Source of the DNA: Fibrobacter sp. UWEL | GTDB lineage: Bacteria > Fibrobacterota > Fibrobacteria > Fibrobacterales > Fibrobacteraceae | DNA length: 64,000 nt | Direction of reading: 5' to 3' | Assembly (NCBI RefSeq): GCF_900142535.1 | Contig: NZ_FRBE01000002.1 | Coordinates: forward strand, 62,001-126,000 | Made by a program: the position numbers and the translations under genes | The notes under the pieces: generated by a model | The model's database searches: none | Told to the model about the DNA's origin: nothing | The model's input: the letters and a program-made list of their open reading frames with translations, nothing else | In this document: one piece after another, positions 12,056 to 21,612 of the stretch | How the letters are laid out: every line of letters begins with the position of its first letter | How positions within the stretch are numbered: position 1 is the stretch's first letter

Positions 12056-13840
12056 TCAACTCGCTTTCTGCTGCACAATCTTGTCGTATGCCTTAAAGAT
12101 GGCGCCGTGGCTTAAGACGCCTATCACTTCCCCGTTCTTATTCTTAACGCAAAGTTCCTGCAGCGACGTGCGAACGAAAATCCGCAGAGCGGAATGCAAA
12201 TCCATAGTATCCAGCAGCATGGGGGCCCTTACGGTACAGTCGGAAATCAGCAAGTGCTGAATCAAGTCCGGAGAGCTGATGTAAGCATTCTTCACGATGG
12301 ACATATCCAGCAAGCCGATGTAAGTTCCCGTATGTTCGTGGCCGAGGGAAAGTCCCGCAGGTGTTCTGGAAGTACCTTCGTAAACGGGATAGACGTAGTC
12401 CACTTCAATATCCTTCAGGACGTCGGAAAGGGAATCTTCACCGCGGAGGGTTTTCATTTCGCAATGTTCAATCACATCGCCGACGGTGGTTACCTTCAAC
12501 ACATCCACATCCATGTCGCCACGGTGAGCAGGGGAAGCAAACTTGTTCAGGACCTGGCTCTTGTAAATGCTCCAAGGTCTGGAGAAGGCAATGTGCATCA
12601 CGGCTGCAATCAAAAGTCCAGGCAGCAAGCTGTAACTTCCGGTCATTTCGCAAACCATGACCACGCCTGCAATGGGAGCCTTGGCAGCTCCAGCAAAGAA
12701 AGCGGCCATGCCTACCAAGATAAACATTTCGGGAGAACGAATCACGCCAGGGGCAACCAGTTCGCAAACGCCCGCAAAGGCAGCTCCCAGCACGCCACCG
12801 ATAAACAGGGACGGTCCGAATACGCCACCGGATCCGCCGGAACCCACCGTCAATCCTGTTGCCACAATCTTTGCCAGCACAATGGCAAGCAGCAGTAAAA
12901 CACCCCAGATGGTATGAGGCATCATGGCACCCATCACTTCGCCGATGAATTCAAAACCACCACCAGCCACTTCGGGGTAAGCCAGCACCAGCACAGAAAT
13001 CATCAGGCCGCCAATAGCAGGCTTAATCCAGTTGGGAACTTGCCAGCGGGCAAATCGATTCTCGGATTCGCTATAGCAGCGCACATACAAGTAAGAGAAG
13101 GGGAAGCACAATATGCCAAGAACAGCACAGCATCCCAATTCCACCGCATTGGCAAAGGGGAACACCGGGACGCCCGCAATAGCAGGTTCCGTCCCCACAA
13201 AGGCAATATAGACAGTAAAGGCAACGACGGAAGAAACGATCGAAGTCGCAAATGCATTGGATTCAAAATCTTCGCGGTAAAGGACTTCCACAGAAGTCAA
13301 CGCACCTGCCAGAGGAGCCTTGAAGATAGAGCCCAGGCCAGCGGCAGTACCTGCCAAAGTAAACTGGCGACGCAAACTCTGGGGCATTTTGAAGCCATGA
13401 CAGAGGGTGGATGCCACTCCGGAACCAATCTGGGAAATGGGGCCTTCGTAACCAGCACTACCGCCAGTAGCCAGCGTGATAATACTGGTCAAGAATTTTA
13501 CGGGAGCGACACGTTTACGAATCTTTCCACCTTCATGATGGAAGGACTTGATCATGTTATCCGTGCCCTGTCCCGCAGTTTCGGGAGCCTTGGCGATGAC
13601 ATAAATGATGACACCCACAATTAAGCCGCCAATGGCAGGCATAATGGCGAAAGTCCACCAGGGAAGAGCGTTTTCCCCTGTCCAGGGCATTTTCACCAAG
13701 GATGTTGCCAGTCCCAAACCAAAATGGAAGGCAACCGCCACAAGACCCGTCACAAAACCGATTACAGCCGCAAGGAAGATCTTCGGCATATAGCCGTTGA
13801 CCACCAGGAATCTGTTAAACCGCTTAATAAATTGTGACAT
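12056..13840 (-). CDS. ClC-family chloride channel/transporter with CBS pair
   Basis: A 594-residue membrane protein. The ClC core (about residues 15-445, some ten membrane segments) has the gating-Glu motif GYEGPISQIGSG, a changed first selectivity loop (GQGTDN instead of GSGIP), and GSGGSGGVFGPSLFIGG. The sequence LTSVEVLYRED aligns with the region of the internal proton glutamate of E. coli ClC (E203), but Val occupies that place, as in animal ClC channels. Two CBS domains form the C-terminus (about 455-590) and may bind nucleotides. A GTG start 11 codons upstream is possible, but ATG 13840 fits better and has a TATCTTG box 8-9 bases upstream. Confidence 0.9.
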   Translation of the reverse strand: MSQFIKRFNRFLVVNGYMPKIFLAAVIGFVTGLVAVAFHFGLGLATSLVKMPWTGENALPWWTFAIMPAIGGLIVGVIIYVIAKAPETAGQGTDNMIKSFHHEGGKIRKRVAPVKFLTSIITLATGGSAGYEGPISQIGSGVASTLCHGFKMPQSLRRQFTLAGTAAGLGSIFKAPLAGALTSVEVLYREDFESNAFATSIVSSVVAFTVYIAFVGTEPAIAGVPVFPFANAVELGCCAVLGILCFPFSYLYVRCYSESENRFARWQVPNWIKPAIGGLMISVLVLAYPEVAGGGFEFIGEVMGAMMPHTIWGVLLLLAIVLAKIVATGLTVGSGGSGGVFGPSLFIGGVLGAAFAGVCELVAPGVIRSPEMFILVGMAAFFAGAAKAPIAGVVMVCEMTGSYSLLPGLLIAAVMHIAFSRPWSIYKSQVLNKFASPAHRGDMDVDVLKVTTVGDVIEHCEMKTLRGEDSLSDVLKDIEVDYVYPVYEGTSRTPAGLSLGHEHTGTYIGLLDMSIVKNAYISSPDLIQHLLISDCTVRAPMLLDTMDLHSALRIFVRTSLQELCVKNKNGEVIGVLSHGAIFKAYDKIVQQKAS

Positions 13841-13848
13841 CGCGGCGC

Positions 13849-13856: not shown

Positions 13857-13895
13857 GAAAAAAAGAACCCCACGCATATTCTGCGCGAGGTTCTT
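13856..13895 (-). terminator. Terminator of the V-ATPase operon
   Basis: The minus strand reads AAGAACC (13889-13895), an interior arm with CGCGCAGAATATGCGTG, then GGTTCTT (13863-13869) and a run of seven T. It is located 22 bp after the last gene of the operon. Confidence 0.85.
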
Positions 13896-13917
13896 CAATT
13901 GCGATTTACGCGAAGGG

Positions 13918-14376
13918 CTACGACACTAACATCATCGAGAACACCATGATGAACAAGGCAACGGTTTCACCCACGCCAAGCACCATCAGGCTGTTCACTA
14001 GACCCTTGCCGGTTTCGCCCAAACCGTTACAGGCATTAGATGCTGCCTTGCCCACATACCATCCGGAGAACATAATGCCCAGTCCACCGAAGATGCCCAC
14101 ACCCAGGCAAGCAGCCCAGTTGTGGAAATCAGGCTTGTTGCATGCATTCAAGATGGTATTCATCAGGAGCATGCCATAAATCGTCTGCGCAATAGGTGCG
14201 CCCACGAACACAAGCAAGGTGAACATAGCGTTCTTCCCCTTAAGGTAGGCTTTCTTCCACGATCCGATCGCCGCCATGCCGGCAGTACTGCAACCCATTG
14301 CAGAGCCGACTGCGGAAAGACCGAGAGCCGCGGCGGCGCCCATCTTGCCGAGAGTCACTATTGTTTCTTGATCCAT
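13918..14376 (-). CDS. atpK: V-type ATP synthase subunit K, second paralogue (K2)
   Basis: A 152-residue proteolipid of two helical hairpins that forms the membrane rotor ring. The ion-binding Glu in the fourth helix is kept (GVGETVALF, E137), as are Gln64 and Tyr67 in the second helix (APIAQTIYG). Compared with K1 and with Enterococcus hirae NtpK, the second-helix Thr/Ser is Ala63 and the third-helix Gln is Val108 (GWYVGKAA). Both are sodium ligands in NtpK, so this copy may bind protons, or sodium more weakly. It is the last gene of the operon, 30 bp after K1. Its reading frame, membrane pattern and Glu are intact, so it is not a decayed copy. Confidence 0.92.
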   Translation of the reverse strand: MDQETIVTLGKMGAAAALGLSAVGSAMGCSTAGMAAIGSWKKAYLKGKNAMFTLLVFVGAPIAQTIYGMLLMNTILNACNKPDFHNWAACLGVGIFGGLGIMFSGWYVGKAASNACNGLGETGKGLVNSLMVLGVGETVALFIMVFSMMLVS

Positions 14377-14406
14377 TCTTTACCTCAAAGGTTACGAATC
14401 AATCAA

Positions 14407-14868
14407 TTAAGCGAAGGTCTGGGTTGCGAACACCATGACGAACAGGGCAACAGTTTCGACCACACCGAGAACCATCAGGTAGTTCACCATGCCCTTGCCG
14501 GTTTCGCCCAAAGCGTCACAAGCAACAGCACCAGCCTTTCCCTGGAACCATGCGGAAGCCATCATGCCGAGGCCGCCGAAGATACCGGCACCGAGGCAAG
14601 CAGCCCAGTTGTTGAAGTTTTCAGCATTTGCTGCACCCAGGATGAAGTTCATCAGGAGCATGCCGTAAATGGTCTGGGAAATGGGAGCACCCACAAACAC
14701 AAGGAGAGTGAAGAGAGCACTCTTGCCCTGAGCGTAAGCCTTCTTCCAGACGGTGATTGCAGACATACCAGCGGTACCGCAACCAAGGGCAGAACCGAGA
14801 GCACCGAGGCCGAGAGCTGCTGCTGCACCCATCTTGCCGAGAGTAACCATGGTTTCGTGATCTAACAT
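14407..14868 (-). CDS. atpK: V-type ATP synthase subunit K, first paralogue (K1)
   Basis: A 153-residue rotor proteolipid with four membrane helices in two hairpins. The residues Ser64 and Gln65 (APISQTIYG), Tyr68, Gln109 (AWFQGKAG) and Glu138 (GVVETVALF) match, almost number for number, the sodium-site residues T64, Q65, Q110 and E139 of E. hirae NtpK. A sodium-binding site is therefore likely. The gene follows atpI and precedes the second K copy. The two copies are about two thirds identical by eye, which suggests an old duplication rather than a recent one. Confidence 0.95.
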   Translation of the reverse strand: MLDHETMVTLGKMGAAAALGLGALGSALGCGTAGMSAITVWKKAYAQGKSALFTLLVFVGAPISQTIYGMLLMNFILGAANAENFNNWAACLGAGIFGGLGMMASAWFQGKAGAVACDALGETGKGMVNYLMVLGVVETVALFVMVFATQTFA

Positions 14869-14892: not shown

Positions 14893-16749
14893 TTAAACGT
14901 TTTTCCGTTTCTTGAACGGGTTAAAGCCAAAACCGCTCCACTGCAGGTCAAGGCCGTTAGAAAATTCAAGGGTGTTCAAACGCACTGCGTGAACCGCCAC
15001 ACCCATGACGGCAAGTGCAATGTTCAGGGCATGAACAAAGAGTAGCACAACGGCTGCACCAAGGAGACCGCCTACAGAACCGAACATGGGCGAAAGCATT
15101 TCGCTGAAGGATTCTGCAATGGCAGCACCGGAAAGGCCCACTGCGAACAGACGGATGTAGCTAATCACATCCACGAAGTTGTTCACGATGTTCAAGGCGA
15201 GCATAGGAATAGAAATCCATTCTTCCTTGAGCTTGGAAGGAGGCACAGAGAACAGCACCAGAAGCACTACACCAGCGATGAGCACATAGATCATCGGAGC
15301 GGAAGTAGGACCGCTGAAGAAGTTTCTGAACACTTCCGGGACCTTGTCGCCCAGCACCATGTTTCCTGCCAGGAAGAACATGTACCAGGTGGAGAACAGC
15401 CAGCCAACCTGAGCCAGAGCTGTAGTACTCTTACGCTGGATCTGGACAATCACATTCCAAACGTGTGCAATAGTCAGATGGACCACTGCAATGCAGAAAC
15501 AGAAGAACTGCATGTTGGAAGACTGACGGATCCAATGCATGGCATTCTTCAGACCCTCGGGGCAGAAGGATGCATTCGCCAAATCAAGATTTGCAACCCA
15601 GGGAGCAATTTCCGGAGTCAAACCAAGATAGCTTGCATTCATGATGCCCCAAACGATGGTCGCACCACTCATAAGGTACATAAAGCTAAAGCCTGCACTC
15701 TTGGATTTCGGAGCCTTCTTGCGGGCAACGATAGTGAGTGCCAGGAACAGAGCTCCGTAGAAGGCATCACCAACGATGATGGCAAAGAACAGGCTGAAGA
15801 AAGCCAGGAACACTGCGGAAACGTCGATTTCCTTGTAGCCCGGAACGATACCGATAATATCGTACAGGAACTGCATGGGTTTCGCAATGGGCTTGTGGGT
15901 CAAAAGCGTGGGAACCATGTCGTCGTCGGAAGGATCTTCTTCACGGACGCCCCAGCCGTTTGCCTTTGCTGCTTCCTGAATTTCGTTCATGCGAGTAGCA
16001 GGAGCGAAACCCTGGATCATGGCGATGCTTGCACCTGCAAGCATACCGCTTGCAGCTTCCTGAAGATCATATTCTTCGTCGGCGTCAGCCAGTTCAGAAT
16101 CGATTTCGGAACGCTTGGCAGCAAGACCTTCCAGAGTCTGGTCAGCCTTTGCAAGTTCAGCACTTGCGGCTTCCAGCTTCTGGCGCATTTCAGCCAGAGA
16201 CATAGACGGCAGAGGAAGTTCCACAGCATCCTTGACGGCTGCAGGTTCTTCACCCTTGCTAATGACTGCATAAAGATTGCCAGTAAGGTTCTGGCCAAAC
16301 GGCAGCACGACGGCGCCATCGGCAGCAGAAATAGTCTTGCTGGGATCAACTTCATAGAGTTTTACGAAAACACCGCTCTCTTCCAGAGACTTCACGGTCT
16401 CGGGATCCAGATTGCCGAAGTTGTTCAGGCGGTTCAAATCATTGTGGAGCTTAGAGATTTCGTCAGTAGCGTCCTTCTTGACCTGCACCATCTGGTGGAC
16501 TGCTTCAACAGCAGGCATTTCAGCAACAGATGCGTCCAGAGCGACAGCATCCTTCCCTGCCTTGGCAGGAATTGCTTCAAGAGCCTTACGGATTCGGGTG
16601 ACCTTGGACTTGGCAGCATTCAGCTTCACGCCCGTGGGGTTAACCAGCGGAGTGACATGAAGGATGCCCATTTCGCGGAGCTTTTCGAGAGAAGCTTCAC
16701 GATCCTTGTCCAGGCAGAGAATGGTTACTTTCTTCATAGGAGTAATCAT
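14893..16749 (-). CDS. atpI: V-type ATP synthase subunit I (a-type stator)
   Basis: A 618-residue stator membrane subunit that forms the ion half-channels next to the K ring and anchors the peripheral stalk. The cytoplasmic N-terminal half (about residues 1-300) has long alpha-helical and coiled-coil stretches (SAELAKADQTLEGLAAKRSE). The C-terminal half has seven to eight membrane helices, including LFAVGLSGAAIAESF, where the essential channel Arg (ISYIRLFAVG) is present. The start overlaps the stop of atpD by four bases (ATGA). The length is usual for bacterial V-type I subunits. Confidence 0.95.
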   Translation of the reverse strand: MITPMKKVTILCLDKDREASLEKLREMGILHVTPLVNPTGVKLNAAKSKVTRIRKALEAIPAKAGKDAVALDASVAEMPAVEAVHQMVQVKKDATDEISKLHNDLNRLNNFGNLDPETVKSLEESGVFVKLYEVDPSKTISAADGAVVLPFGQNLTGNLYAVISKGEEPAAVKDAVELPLPSMSLAEMRQKLEAASAELAKADQTLEGLAAKRSEIDSELADADEEYDLQEAASGMLAGASIAMIQGFAPATRMNEIQEAAKANGWGVREEDPSDDDMVPTLLTHKPIAKPMQFLYDIIGIVPGYKEIDVSAVFLAFFSLFFAIIVGDAFYGALFLALTIVARKKAPKSKSAGFSFMYLMSGATIVWGIMNASYLGLTPEIAPWVANLDLANASFCPEGLKNAMHWIRQSSNMQFFCFCIAVVHLTIAHVWNVIVQIQRKSTTALAQVGWLFSTWYMFFLAGNMVLGDKVPEVFRNFFSGPTSAPMIYVLIAGVVLLVLFSVPPSKLKEEWISIPMLALNIVNNFVDVISYIRLFAVGLSGAAIAESFSEMLSPMFGSVGGLLGAAVVLLFVHALNIALAVMGVAVHAVRLNTLEFSNGLDLQWSGFGFNPFKKRKNV

Positions 16750-17387
16750 GCGGCTACCCCCTTATTCTGAGCGGCTGCGGCATCCTGTGCTGCGGCACGA
16801 GCGGTAGACTTGCCCTTGGCAAGCTTAGAACGTGCAACACCAGAAGTCTGCTGGTCACCCAGGAAGATGTTAATCTTACGGATGTTATCCTTGGCTTCGG
16901 GAATCTTGACCTTTTCGAAAAGATTCACACGCTGGCTGGTGGTACGGAGTTCCATGGAAAGCAATTCGTACTGCTTTTCGAGAACGCGGCGTTCCAGGCG
17001 CAGGGAGATAAGGCCCTGCAGACTACGGATACCGTCGTCCAGCCAAACCGGCGTAGTAAAGAAGTCAGGGATGGTCACATTAAAGTCTACCCCATCGAAT
17101 GTAGGAATGCGGACACCGGCGATGTTTCCTTCGCCCTGGCGCACTTCCTTCACCGACAGGTACTTAGACCAATCGATAGGTTCGGCATACAGCGAAATCC
17201 AGGAGGACATGCTCTTACGGAGTTTGTCTTCCTCCTCTCGCTTTGCCATCACCCTCTCCTGGAGCGTACGCATTTCCATCTGCAGCTGTTGCTTTTTCAG
17301 CAAGAGCGTCGGCAGATAGCGCTGGAAGCGCTTCAATGCGTCGCGTTCCGCCTTGAGGGCGTTTTTGGTTAACTTGACTTTAGCCAT
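16746..17387 (-). CDS. atpD: V-type ATP synthase subunit D (central stalk)
   Basis: A 213-residue central-shaft subunit, equivalent to F-type gamma. It is a long antiparallel helical pair: KNALKAERDALKRFQRYLPTLLLKKQQLQMEM at the N-terminus and LRTTSQRVNLFEKVKIPEAKDNIRKI near the C-terminus are the standard signature. The end is Ala-rich and probably disordered. It lies three bases after atpB and overlaps atpI, consistent with one transcript. No subunit F gene is present in the operon, although D normally partners F in the shaft. Confidence 0.95.
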   Translation of the reverse strand: MAKVKLTKNALKAERDALKRFQRYLPTLLLKKQQLQMEMRTLQERVMAKREEEDKLRKSMSSWISLYAEPIDWSKYLSVKEVRQGEGNIAGVRIPTFDGVDFNVTIPDFFTTPVWLDDGIRSLQGLISLRLERRVLEKQYELLSMELRTTSQRVNLFEKVKIPEAKDNIRKINIFLGDQQTSGVARSKLAKGKSTARAAAQDAAAAQNKGVAA

Positions 17388-17390
17388 GAA

Positions 17391-18692
17391 TTACCCCTTC
17401 TTGGGCCAATACTGACTAATCATCTTGGAAGGAATACCGGTTTCTTCGGGTTCGAAGCAATCAGCAAGGATTGTCCAGCCCAGATCCAGAGCCTGTTCCA
17501 GAGGAATGTTCACAGACAGGTCCATCATTTCCTTTTCGAAACGAGTACCGTACTTCAACAGCTTCTGGTCCCAAGTACTCATGTTGAAGCCCATAGACTG
17601 CTTTTCAAGAGTTTCCTTGAAGGAAGCATAGAGCTGGATCATGGTATTCATGATGGTACGATGGTCGCTACGGGTCTTACCGTTCACCTGCTGCTTCAAA
17701 CGAGACAGAGAACCGAACGGTTCGATACGGCCCTTACGGAGATAGAACTGACCTTCGGTAATGTAACCGGTGTTATCCGGAACCGGATGGGTCACGTCAT
17801 CGCCCGGCATGGTGGTAACAGCGAGGATGGTAATAGAACCTGCGTCGGTGAAGTCCACAGCCTTTTCGTAACGGCTAGCGAGAGAAGAGTAAAGATCGCC
17901 AGGATAACCACGGTTAGACGGAATCTGTTCCATGGTAATTGCAATTTCCTTCATGGCGTCAGCAAAGTTGGTCATGTCGGTGAGGAGCACCAGCACGTTC
18001 TTGCCTTCGGTTGCGAACTTTTCGGCAACAGCAAGAGAAGCATCCGGAACCAGCAAGCATTCCACAATGGGGTCAGATGCAGTGTGCATGAACATCACGG
18101 TACGGCTAAGAGCACCGTTCTTTTCCAGGTAATCCTTCAGGTACAGATAGTCATCGTGCTTCAGGCCCATACCGCCAAGAACGATCACGTCCACTTCTGC
18201 CTGCAGAGCAATACGGGCAAGCAGTTCGTTGTACGGTTCACCAGCGATAGAGAAGATCGGAAGCTTCTGGGACACCACGAGAGTGTTGAACACGTCAATC
18301 ATGGGGATACCGGTACGCACCATGGTCTTGGGAATCACGCGCTTTGCCGGGTTCACAGAAGGACCACCAATGGTAATGCGTTCGCCGTCTACTTCGGGAC
18401 CGTTGTCACGGGGCATGCCAGCACCGTTAAATACGCGGCCAAGGAGAGCTTCGGAATAAGGAACCTTCATAGGTTCGCCAAGGAAGCGAACTTCAGAGTC
18501 GGTAGAAACGCCACGGGCACCTGCGAAAACCTGCAGGTCAACCATGTCACCGTCAATACGGATCACACGGGCGAGAGAAGTACCGAAAGAGCTAGTAACC
18601 TGAGCCAGTTCCTGGTTAGCAACGCCTTCTGCTCTCAGGGAGATCACAGAACCAGCGATGCGTTCAATACGATGGTAAGCAACATTATGCAT
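17391..18692 (-). CDS. atpB: V-type ATP synthase subunit B
   Basis: A 433-residue non-catalytic subunit of the hexameric head. The N-terminal beta-barrel (residues 1-75) is followed by the nucleotide-binding-like domain, in which the P-loop is degenerate ([15 protein letters not shown]), as expected for [21 protein letters not shown] and [20 protein letters not shown] are family blocks, and the latter holds the arginine finger region. The gene starts eight bases inside the end of atpA. Confidence 0.97.
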
Positions 18693-20442
18693 TGACAGTT
18701 ACCTCCTTCACGGAAGCAGTAATATTGGATTCGATGTCCTTGAATTCTGCAGAATCCATTGCCACACGGTTCCAGTCCTTAGTAGCCTGAGTCAGCTTCA
18801 GGAAGAAGGTACGTGCAATGTCCTTTTCTGCGAAAGTCATAGGAGTCTTCAAAATAGAGTAGACCTTGTCGAACACATACTTCTGACGGTCGCCGGTGCA
18901 GGCAGCGTCAATTTCGTGGTATGCGTCCTGCTGCAGGTAGACTGCATCAAGGTATTCAGACTTAAGATAGGTAATGAAGTCATCGATGGAGGTACCTTCT
19001 TCGCCCACCACCTTCATCATGTTGTTGACGTCAACGCCAGCAGCAAGAATCTTGCGAGCATCGGCAACCTTCTTCACATCGATAATGCCTTCGTACTTGG
19101 ACCAGGAATCCAGCGGGTGGATTGCCGGGAAGCGGCGCTGGTCGGAACGTTCACGGGAAAGGCCGAGGAATGCGCCCACCACCTTCAAGGTAGCCTGGGT
19201 CACCGGTTCTTCGAAGTTACCACCTGCAGGAGAAACGGAACCGCCGATGGTCACAGAACCAGTGGAACCATCCTTCAGGCGAACAACGCCACCGCGTTCG
19301 TAGAAGGCAGCAATCACAGATTCCAAGTAAGCCGGGAAGGCTTCTTCACCCGGAATTTCTTCCAGACGGCCAGACATTTCACGAAGAGCCTGTGCCCAAC
19401 GAGAAGTAGAGTCAGCAAGCAGCAACACGTTCAGACCCATCTGGCGATAGTATTCAGCCAGGGTCACGCCAGTGTAAACGGAAGCTTCACGAGCAGCCAC
19501 CGGCATGGAAGAAGTGTTACAAATAATCAAAGTACGTTCCATGAGGGACTTACCGGTACGGGGGTCAATCAACTCAGGGAATTCGCGAAGGGTTTCCACC
19601 ACTTCACCAGCACGTTCACCGCAAGCGGCCAGGATCACGATGTCCACGTCAGCATAACGGCTCATGAGCTGCTGCAGCACAGTCTTACCAGCACCGAAGG
19701 GGCCCGGAGTACAGAAGGTACCACCCTGCATCACAGGGAAGAAGGTATCCACAATGCGCTGCTGCATGGTCAAAGGCTTGGTGGGGCGAAGACGTTCTTC
19801 GAAAGCCTTGATAGGCATCTTCACCGGCCAGGTCTGGACCATCTTGATTTCAATCTTTTCGCCCTTTTCGTTCTTCACGACGGCAACAACGTCTTCCACG
19901 ACGTGTTCGCCAGCGGCAACGACGGATTCTACGGTCACCTTGCCGAGAACCTTGAAGGGAACCATGATGCGGTGAGTGAACACGCCTTCGGGTACGGTAC
20001 CGATGGTGTCACCAGCAACCAGCACATCACCCGGCTTAGCAACCGGAGTGAAAGCCCACTTGCGGTCACGGGGCAGAGCCGGCAGGTACTTACCGCGCTG
20101 CAGGAAGAAGCCGCACTGTTCGGCAAGTTCAGGCAGGGGGTTCTGCAGACCATCGAACACCTGAGTCAGAAGACCAGGTCCCAGTTCCACAGAAAGCAGT
20201 TCGCCAGTGAATTCGACTTCGTCGCCAGCCTTAAGGCCGGTGGTATCTTCGAACACCTGAAGTTCTGCATAATCGCCACGGATACGAATCACTTCGCTCT
20301 TCAGCGGGATAATTTCGGACTTGCCATCCTTAGTCTTGGAGGGCAACTTGGCGTAAGCCACTTCGTTCTGAGACACGGCGCTTTCGAACTTGACGCGAAT
20401 CAAGTTACCGTTGACGCCGATGATTTTTCCGATACTAGCCAT
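18685..20442 (-). CDS. atpA: V-type ATP synthase catalytic subunit A
   Basis: A 585-residue catalytic subunit. It has an N-terminal barrel, the long 'non-homologous' insert typical of V/A-type A subunits (about residues 110-200, [14 protein letters not shown]), and the Walker A loop [12 protein letters not shown]. The catalytic Glu region is [18 protein letters not shown], and [21 protein letters not shown] follows. The frame is open seven codons further, but ATG 20442 has GGAGGT about nine bases upstream, so it is the start. It overlaps nothing and begins 18 bp after the DUF2764 stop. Confidence 0.97.
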
Positions 20443-20459
20443 TGAAAATGGACCTCCGG

Positions 20460-20996
20460 TCATTCCTGAACAAAGTCAGGATCGTTTGCATTAATAACGT
20501 TGAGAACAGCTGCGTCGCCGGCCTTTTCGGAAAGGCGGGCCCAACGCGCACAAATTTGGAGCTTGATTGCGTATGCGTATACGTGCTTGACGGTTTCCTC
20601 CCCCACACCTGCGAGGCAGTCCACCAGCCAGAAACGAGCCTTGTCCAGATCCTGCTCTTTTTCCATAGGATTGGACTTGGCAAACGCATCCTGAACCATC
20701 TTGGCGAAGTAGACGTCGTAACCGGCAAAGCTACGTTCGCTGAAACGAACATCGGGGCCCCATGCCTGAGCGCGGAGCCTGCCGGAAACGTTCTTCATCT
20801 GGATTTCGTGAGCCTGGTAGGCCTGCACGAACTCATCGTCAGAAGGTTCATCGTTAATCAAGGCGTTCAGAGCTTCGATTTCAGCCTGGTCCAGGGCGCC
20901 TTCACAACGGCTACGGAAATCATCCATAGTCAGGGGCGGCACGTCACCCAGGTTGATCATCGGCAATGAAGCCATTAAATAAGAAGGAGAACTCAT
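20460..20996 (-). CDS. DUF2764 protein of the V-ATPase operon
   Basis: A 178-residue soluble, mainly helical protein. The start SSPSYLMASLPMINLGDVPPLTMDDFRSRC and the middle 'W..y' helices match the DUF2764 family that sits between subunits E and A in Bacteroidetes, spirochaete and chlamydial V-ATPase operons. Its position is where subunit C or F would be, and neither is encoded here. It could therefore be a functional replacement for the C-type collar subunit, but this is inferred from gene order only. AAGGCG precedes the ATG. Confidence 0.8.
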   Translation of the reverse strand: MSSPSYLMASLPMINLGDVPPLTMDDFRSRCEGALDQAEIEALNALINDEPSDDEFVQAYQAHEIQMKNVSGRLRAQAWGPDVRFSERSFAGYDVYFAKMVQDAFAKSNPMEKEQDLDKARFWLVDCLAGVGEETVKHVYAYAIKLQICARWARLSEKAGDAAVLNVINANDPDFVQE

Positions 20997-21009: not shown

Positions 21010-21612
21010 TTACTTAGCCTGTGCTGCAGCGTTAACAACCTTGGCCAGCTGCGGGCGGAGCAATGCAGAAAGAGCGTCTGCCATTGCCTTTTCGGTAAAT
21101 TCGTGGGTGACCTTGCCACCGTCCAGCTTGACGCGGAAGCCATACTTGACCCCCTTGTCGCTAGAAACTTCTACACCGTTGGAAAGCTGCTTTGCAAATT
21201 CGCCAGTGACGAAAGAGGCAAGCTTCTTGGCATCGTCTTCGCTGAAGTCTACTTCAACGTGGGCGGTGTAGCCCTTAGCCAAAGAAAGGAGCATTTCCTT
21301 GATGGTAGATTCGTCCAGGGACTTTTCCACCTGGAGGGAGAGCAGGTTAAGAATCATATCCTGAAGATTCTTGCCTACAGAGAGAAGAAGATCGCGTGCG
21401 GACTGTTCCAAAGTGCGTTCGCTACGTTCGGTAAATGCTTCTGCGTCCTTATCGGCCTTAGCAAGCTTTGCCTGAGCTTCAGCTTCGGCTGCCTTCACAA
21501 TTTCGGCTGCCTTTTCCTTAGCCTTGGCAATAATTGCCGCTGCATCGTTTTCGGCCTTGTCAACTGCATCTTTCTGGATGCGTTCCATAAGGTATTGCAA
21601 ATCTTCTGCCAT
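21010..21612 (-). CDS. atpE: V-type ATP synthase subunit E (peripheral stalk)
   Basis: A 200-residue stalk subunit. Residues 1-95 form a charged, Ala/Lys/Glu-rich helix (AAAIIAKAKEKAAEIVKAAE) expected to make a coiled coil with a partner stalk subunit. The C-terminal half is a mixed alpha/beta head-binding domain (VEVDFSEDDAKKLASF). It is the first gene of the operon, with GGAG eight bases upstream of ATG 21612 and an AT-rich leader. The partner (G/H-type) subunit is not recognisable here; the I subunit or another locus may supply it. Confidence 0.93.
   Translation of the reverse strand: MAEDLQYLMERIQKDAVDKAENDAAAIIAKAKEKAAEIVKAAEAEAQAKLAKADKDAEAFTERSERTLEQSARDLLLSVGKNLQDMILNLLSLQVEKSLDESTIKEMLLSLAKGYTAHVEVDFSEDDAKKLASFVTGEFAKQLSNGVEVSSDKGVKYGFRVKLDGGKVTHEFTEKAMADALSALLRPQLAKVVNAAAQAK

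Follow-up and report, generated by a model that had tools for sequence, protein, structure and literature searches.

The V-type ATPase operon of Fibrobacter sp. UWEL encodes two rotor subunits, K1 and K2, and the ion-site residues are split between them: K1 has the complete set of side chains of a Na+-type site, and K2 has a reduced one. This split between two co-encoded rotor subunits is real, conserved and old. It suggests that one motor may transport Na+ as well as H+.

The operon lies on the minus strand of the window (the whole stretch of 64,000 nucleotides that was analysed, from a genome of 3.53 Mb) in the order E-C-A-B-D-I-K1-K2, with the rotor pair last (Table 1). Subunits A, B, D, I, K1 and K2 were identified with profiles, and E and C by their position. 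As the sequence-only reading had noted, the genes for K1 (153 aa) and K2 (152 aa) are intact and adjacent; a spacer of 30 bases separates them, and the proteins are identical at 110 of 152 aligned residues (72%). Both belong to the NF005174 family of V-type K subunits, with scores of 211.6 bits for K1 and 202.3 bits for K2 against a cut-off of 127, and both are encoded with other V-ATPase subunits on the same strand, as membership of that family requires.

Each of the two genes is preceded by a purine-rich, Shine-Dalgarno-like leader. On the operon strand no promoter-like site was found between K1 and K2, and no RNA families were found within the operon; a hairpin across the K2 start is barely above chance strength (z -1.56). 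The operon probably ends at the terminator-like stem after K2. Two terminator-like sites were observed in the region where 1.6 are expected, and the one after K2 is long and well placed.

A gene for a ClC-type chloride channel/antiporter lies directly downstream of this site. Close relatives and some horse-gut Fibrobacter (ten loci) also have a ClC-type gene in the vicinity of the operon, and none was seen there in the F. succinogenes loci. In two close relatives (L119:2801-3396 and L120:2808-3403) the K1-K2 spacer is about 106 bases longer than that of the window (14377-14406), with flanking genes nearly identical to the window's.

Table 1 The V-ATPase operon and its downstream neighbourhood in the window
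Feature	Position	Strand	Evidence
Probable V-type ATPase subunit E	21010-21612	-	Position and coiled-coil-like sequence
Probable V-type ATPase subunit C (d)	20460-20996	-	Operon position and length only
V-type ATPase subunit A	18685-20463	-	NF003220, 781.4 bits, cut-off 470
V-type ATPase subunit B	17391-18692	-	NF002555, 757.9 bits, cut-off 431
V-type ATPase subunit D	16746-17387	-	NF002565, 257.9 bits, cut-off 189
V-type ATPase subunit I, stator, with SYIRLFAVGLSG motif holding the conserved Arg	14893-16749	-	NF004429, 395 bits, under the cut-off
K1, V-type ATPase rotor subunit K, full Na+-type ligand set (S64, Q65, Q109, E138; Y68)	14407-14868	-	
K2, rotor subunit K paralogue, reduced ligand set (A63, Q64, V108, G136, E137; Y67)	13918-14376	-	
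Terminator-like stem of 15 pairs with a T run, immediately downstream of K2	13862-13896	-	Consensus scan
ClC-type chloride channel/antiporter gene	12056-13842	-	

Ion-site residues of K1 and K2

The reference for the ion site was E. hirae NtpK, with a sequence that agrees with PDB 2BL2 over its whole length. The pocket of NtpK consists of L61, T64, Q65, Q110 and E139, with Y68 bonded to E139 (PMC10382590; ligand set also in PMC2359735), and the sequence-only reading was correct in treating this ligand set as established. In our alignment T64, Q65, Y68, Q110 and E139 of NtpK line up with S64, Q65, Y68, Q109 and E138 of K1 and with A63, Q64, Y67, V108 and E137 of K2, each in its own numbering. 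The register stayed the same whichever of three gap penalties was used, and a profile from which K2 and NtpK had been left out reproduced it. A misalignment of Gln109 and Val108 with NtpK Q110 is thereby rejected, and the two residue assignments proposed earlier are confirmed, namely that K1 retains the Na+-binding residues of NtpK and that K2 keeps Gln64, Tyr67 and Glu137 and has Ala63 and Val108 in place of two ligands. In NtpK numbering, used from here on unless stated, the side-chain set Thr/Ser64, Gln65, Gln110 and Glu139 is complete in K1 and incomplete in K2 (Ala64, Val110). The Leu61-equivalent position moves with the gap penalty; in NtpK this residue gives a backbone carbonyl only. 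One further difference had been overlooked: K2 has a Gly at position 138, beside the essential Glu, where the others have Val, Ile or Ala.

Against 2bl2, AlphaFold models of K1 and K2 (mean pLDDT 93.1 and 88.4) give Z scores of 18.9 and 18.6, respectively, with 147 residues matched. Four helices are predicted in both proteins, with a single ion-binding Glu in the last one (Glu138 in K1, Glu137 in K2, own numbering), which is invariant. The earlier idea that the second subunit could alter the gear ratio of the enzyme is not supported by this comparison. Each protein keeps one Glu per four-helix unit and, with one carboxylate in each, swapping K1 and K2 would leave the number of ions per turn unchanged unless the size of the ring changes. 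From the residues at the site, we infer that K2 may change the Na+/H+ preference.

The direction of such a change has to be judged from other enzymes. At positions 61, 64, 65 and 110 of NtpK, E. hirae has other residues than H+-coupled K proteins (PMC9006882), and the human H+ V-ATPase c subunit has an Ile aligned with V108 of K2 (own numbering). The E. hirae site is nearly non-selective, its use of Na+ stemming from a large Na+ excess (PMC3692424), and by analogy the loss of ligands at a site of this kind should shift it towards H+. However, in a published survey Gln65 is a mark of Na+, and enzymes predicted to use H+ carry Leu, Ile or Val in its place (PMC2359735); K2 has Gln65 where the H+-type criterion of that survey asks for an aliphatic residue, which argues for caution in an H+ reading of its site. 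Water could also replace the lost ligands of K2, with Na+ binding retained. A contribution from the neighbouring subunit is not expected: the ion in NtpK is held inside one four-helix subunit (PMC2359735), so a neighbouring K1 could not lend its Gln to the K2 site.

Conservation and origin of the pair

The comparison drew on about 128 loci, which yielded 216 K-like stretches. The pattern A64-Q65-Y68-V110-G138-E139 is present in all 89 full-length K2 (65 distinct DNA sequences, 32 distinct proteins), and S64, Q65, Q110 and E139 in all 79 full-length paired K1 (55 distinct DNA sequences); the Gln/Val split is thus conserved in relatives, as the sequence-only reading had asked. Residues that are fixed in K2 and never seen in K1 are those at 64, 110 and 138, in the pocket or beside it, and those at 51, 95, 119 and 128, among others, elsewhere. 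In the 25 distinct single-K proteins, a set that includes two from contig ends in Fibrobacter itself, position 64 is always S or T and position 110 always Q; Gln65 and Glu139 are likewise kept in all single-K relatives. Since these residues are shared by single-K proteins and K1, K1 represents the old state and K2 the derived one. The WYVGK pattern also hits unrelated places, and its count does not enter these conservation figures. The scan of the genome collection covered close relatives and had limited reach beyond the phylum; among plasmids and viral contigs no relatives were found.

Pairs of K1 and K2 are found in three genera of the Fibrobacteraceae, namely that of the window and two more (F. 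intestinalis included), and six other sampled genera have one K only. At these loci, the sampled relatives in other Fibrobacterota, in Kiritimatiellota and in Victivallales have a single K with the K1 pattern. The maximum-likelihood tree places K2 in one clade (branch support 100/99), for which a single origin is sufficient; judged from sequence, K2 arose once, inside the Fibrobacteraceae. The split between the lineage of the window and that of F. succinogenes is seen in both K1 and K2, hence the duplication is older than this split. The synonymous difference between K1 and K2 within a genome is 0.54-0.73, which marks the pair as old and not homogenised.

Several trivial origins of the pattern were considered and rejected. 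Gene conversion keeping the pair alike and recent copying are both ruled out by the synonymous difference (54-73%). Sequencing error, chance or a private mutation is ruled out by 89 K2 copies with a fixed pattern that is absent in single-K relatives. Candidates for independent pairs elsewhere in the phylum, in three genomes outside the Fibrobacteraceae, proved to be two K matches on different contigs, and those recovered at full length have Na+-type site residues.

Rearranged copies also occur. Some Fibrobacter genomes have a second partial locus (L050:2653-4453 and five others) with the last third of subunit I (none seen in L116), a K1, often truncated at the N-terminus, and an intact K2. A broken copy is seen in L114. 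Subunit I, with its tail lost, is fused in frame to K1 in a 765-aa ORF (L069:890-3184; MAG RUG14609). Two hybrid K genes (L070:570-1055 and L077:281-691) join a K1 body to a K2 end, with Gln110 and Gly138, and reflect recombination within the pair or chimeric assembly. Finally, loss of the K1 tail and stop fuses K1 and K2 in frame in one ORF of 310 aa (L062:3524-4453 and L111:3034-3939, the same genome). This fusion is known from one MAG only (RUG10790) and may be real or an assembly artefact; if real, it would force K1 and K2 to be neighbours in a ring.

The degraded extra copy in one genome (L114) would fit the idea that K2 is a redundant or degenerating gene that merely adds rotor subunits, and with about ten rotor subunits per enzyme extra genes can help. 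However, dosage alone would leave K1 and K2 alike or homogenised, and K2 evolves more slowly than K1, under stronger purifying selection (median dN/dS 0.056 versus 0.115), with its differences fixed. A pseudogene is ruled out by the low dN/dS, and we consider dosage or decay, already disfavoured, very improbable.

One enzyme and its ring

Only two PF00137 proteins are present in the genome, K1 and K2. The ATP-synt_ab profile matches the V-type A and B subunits of this operon and, more weakly (100.8 bits), one protein on another contig, which we take to be Rho. No F-ATPase and no other c/K gene were found in the genome with these two profiles. With a sole rotary ATPase and no other c/K gene, K1 and K2 must both serve one enzyme. 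The genome also has an oxaloacetate-decarboxylase-type (OAD) beta subunit, a Na+ pump, and NuoH-like proteins, and neither Rnf/Nqr nor a membrane pyrophosphatase was found in it; given this inventory, Na+ and H+ gradients are both plausible.

The sequence-only reading had placed a mixed ring and a choice between two rings side by side. The mixed ring is now favoured: K1 and K2 are the last genes of one operon, the terminator-like site stands only after K2, and no other c/K gene is present. The choice finds no support in the sequence. Gene order, the status of sole ATPase and the one fused ORF are only suggestive of a heteromeric ring, and co-assembly in one ring, like the kind of ion that K2 carries, is what we infer from the genes.

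Our best explanation is that the V-ATPase rotor gene was duplicated once, long ago, in gut Fibrobacteraceae, giving K1 and K2. K1 has retained the ancestral Na+-type pocket, and K2 has lost two of five Na+ ligands, the Thr/Ser64 hydroxyl and Gln110, and gained a Gly beside its essential Glu. With Glu139, Gln65 and Tyr68 in place, K2 can still take an ion that neutralises the charge past the Arg of the stator. The two subunits, probably made from one transcript and serving the only rotary ATPase of the cell, would then co-assemble in one ring, and one motor would be tied to both gradients. In such a ring the K1 sites would use Na+, and the K2 sites would use H+ for the most part or bind Na+ far less tightly; this is the likeliest of the readings considered, and we place it a little short of probable. 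A ring with Na+ sites in K1 and H+ sites in K2 by design, moving a fixed mix of Na+ and H+ per turn and locking the gradients together, seems to us rather unlikely.

It is also possible that the ring is mixed for the sake of structure. K2 would then be an asymmetry or assembly subunit that sets the docking of subunit C/D or the building of the ring, and its site would carry the same ion as that of K1, held by Glu, Tyr68, Gln65 and water. In eukaryotes, V-ATPase rings combine c, c' and c'', and the ion stays the same. Gln65 and Glu139 are kept in all K2 copies, and fixed differences extend beyond the pocket, to positions 50, 51 and 119 among others; of these, changes such as Q51K and D119N could point to a structural role. 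However, three of the fixed changes that break residues otherwise conserved in K1 and single-K proteins lie in the pocket or beside it (64, 110 and 138), and a purely structural role would not need the loss of both ligands. We regard this alternative as unlikely.

Two alternative homomeric rings, a Na+ ring of K1 or a weaker-Na+ or H+ ring of K2 according to conditions such as rumen pH, would be in line with two full-length, self-sufficient subunits. The habitats are compatible with it as well: named records with the pair point to rumen, caecum or faeces whenever they give a source, and several single-K relatives, by their record names, apparently come from digesters or groundwater. However, the genes are adjacent, with no promoter-like site between them and a terminator-like site after K2. 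Leaving aside the two hybrid genes, subunit I is followed by K1 and then K2 wherever a locus of the pair-bearing genera is uninterrupted, and one is found without the other only at contig ends and in those hybrids. In F. succinogenes S85, the V-ATPase cluster (Fisuc_2835-2842) is treated as a putative proton pump (PMC5442110). In the same study atpD alone is up-regulated among the V-ATPase genes of acid-grown cells, which also speaks against a switch of rings, and no discussion of the two K genes was found there. A choice between two rings appears quite improbable.

From a broader perspective, rotary ATPases are commonly classed as either Na+ or H+ machines. If the preferred reading of one ring with unlike sites is true, the mixed rotor would tie the Na+ and H+ gradients together in a fixed ratio and offer a natural way to find out if sites of two kinds can coexist in one ring. 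Since this is the only rotary ATPase of Fibrobacter, the matter is relevant to how a leading rumen cellulose degrader manages its energy and tolerates pH, and it can be tested in a culturable type strain, F. succinogenes S85.

Comparison with known rotors

Mixed rotors are already known from Acetobacterium woodii and from the eukaryotic V-ATPase; split ion ligands would be new, if the ring is mixed, and no description of a V-type ring with such a split was found in the open-licence literature. A search of the same literature for biochemical data on the Fibrobacter V-ATPase likewise turned up none. The gene order of the Fibrobacter operon is that of NF005174 (PRK06649), the bacterial E-C-A-B-D-I-K type. 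Within the same phylum, Chitinispirillum has a single-K KIDBACE cluster that was read as Na+ type (PMC4814513). K1 and K2 share with E. hirae NtpK (2BL2) the fold and a four-helix subunit with one Glu each; K1 has all of its side-chain ligands, with Ser for Thr64, and K2 is without those at Thr64 and Gln110. The E. hirae ring is built from ten copies of one K (PMC2359735).

The Na+-F1FO c-ring of A. woodii and Clostridium aceticum (c1, c2 and c3) likewise combines different subunits encoded by one operon in a bacterial rotor (PMC7911925), and the structure 4bem is among the fold matches of the K1 and K2 models. There, c1 lacks the carboxylate in one hairpin, which gives fewer ions per turn, and the remaining sites are all of Na+ type. 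By contrast, no carboxylate is lost in K1 and K2; the neutral ligands differ instead. Chains of the eukaryotic V-ATPase rotor are also among the fold matches. That rotor (c, c' and c'') is a heteromeric V-type ring of four-helix paralogues with the same fold, and it has, as K2 does, an aliphatic residue at the Gln110 position. However, all its sites are H+ sites, no Na+ ligand set is divided among its paralogues, and K2 retains Gln65. Finally, Na+ and H+ meet in one rotary enzyme in the ATP synthase of Methanosarcina acetivorans, a case cited by PMC7911925 and taken up in PMC3692424; there, one promiscuous kind of site serves both ions, whereas the case proposed for Fibrobacter would involve two kinds of rotor subunit.
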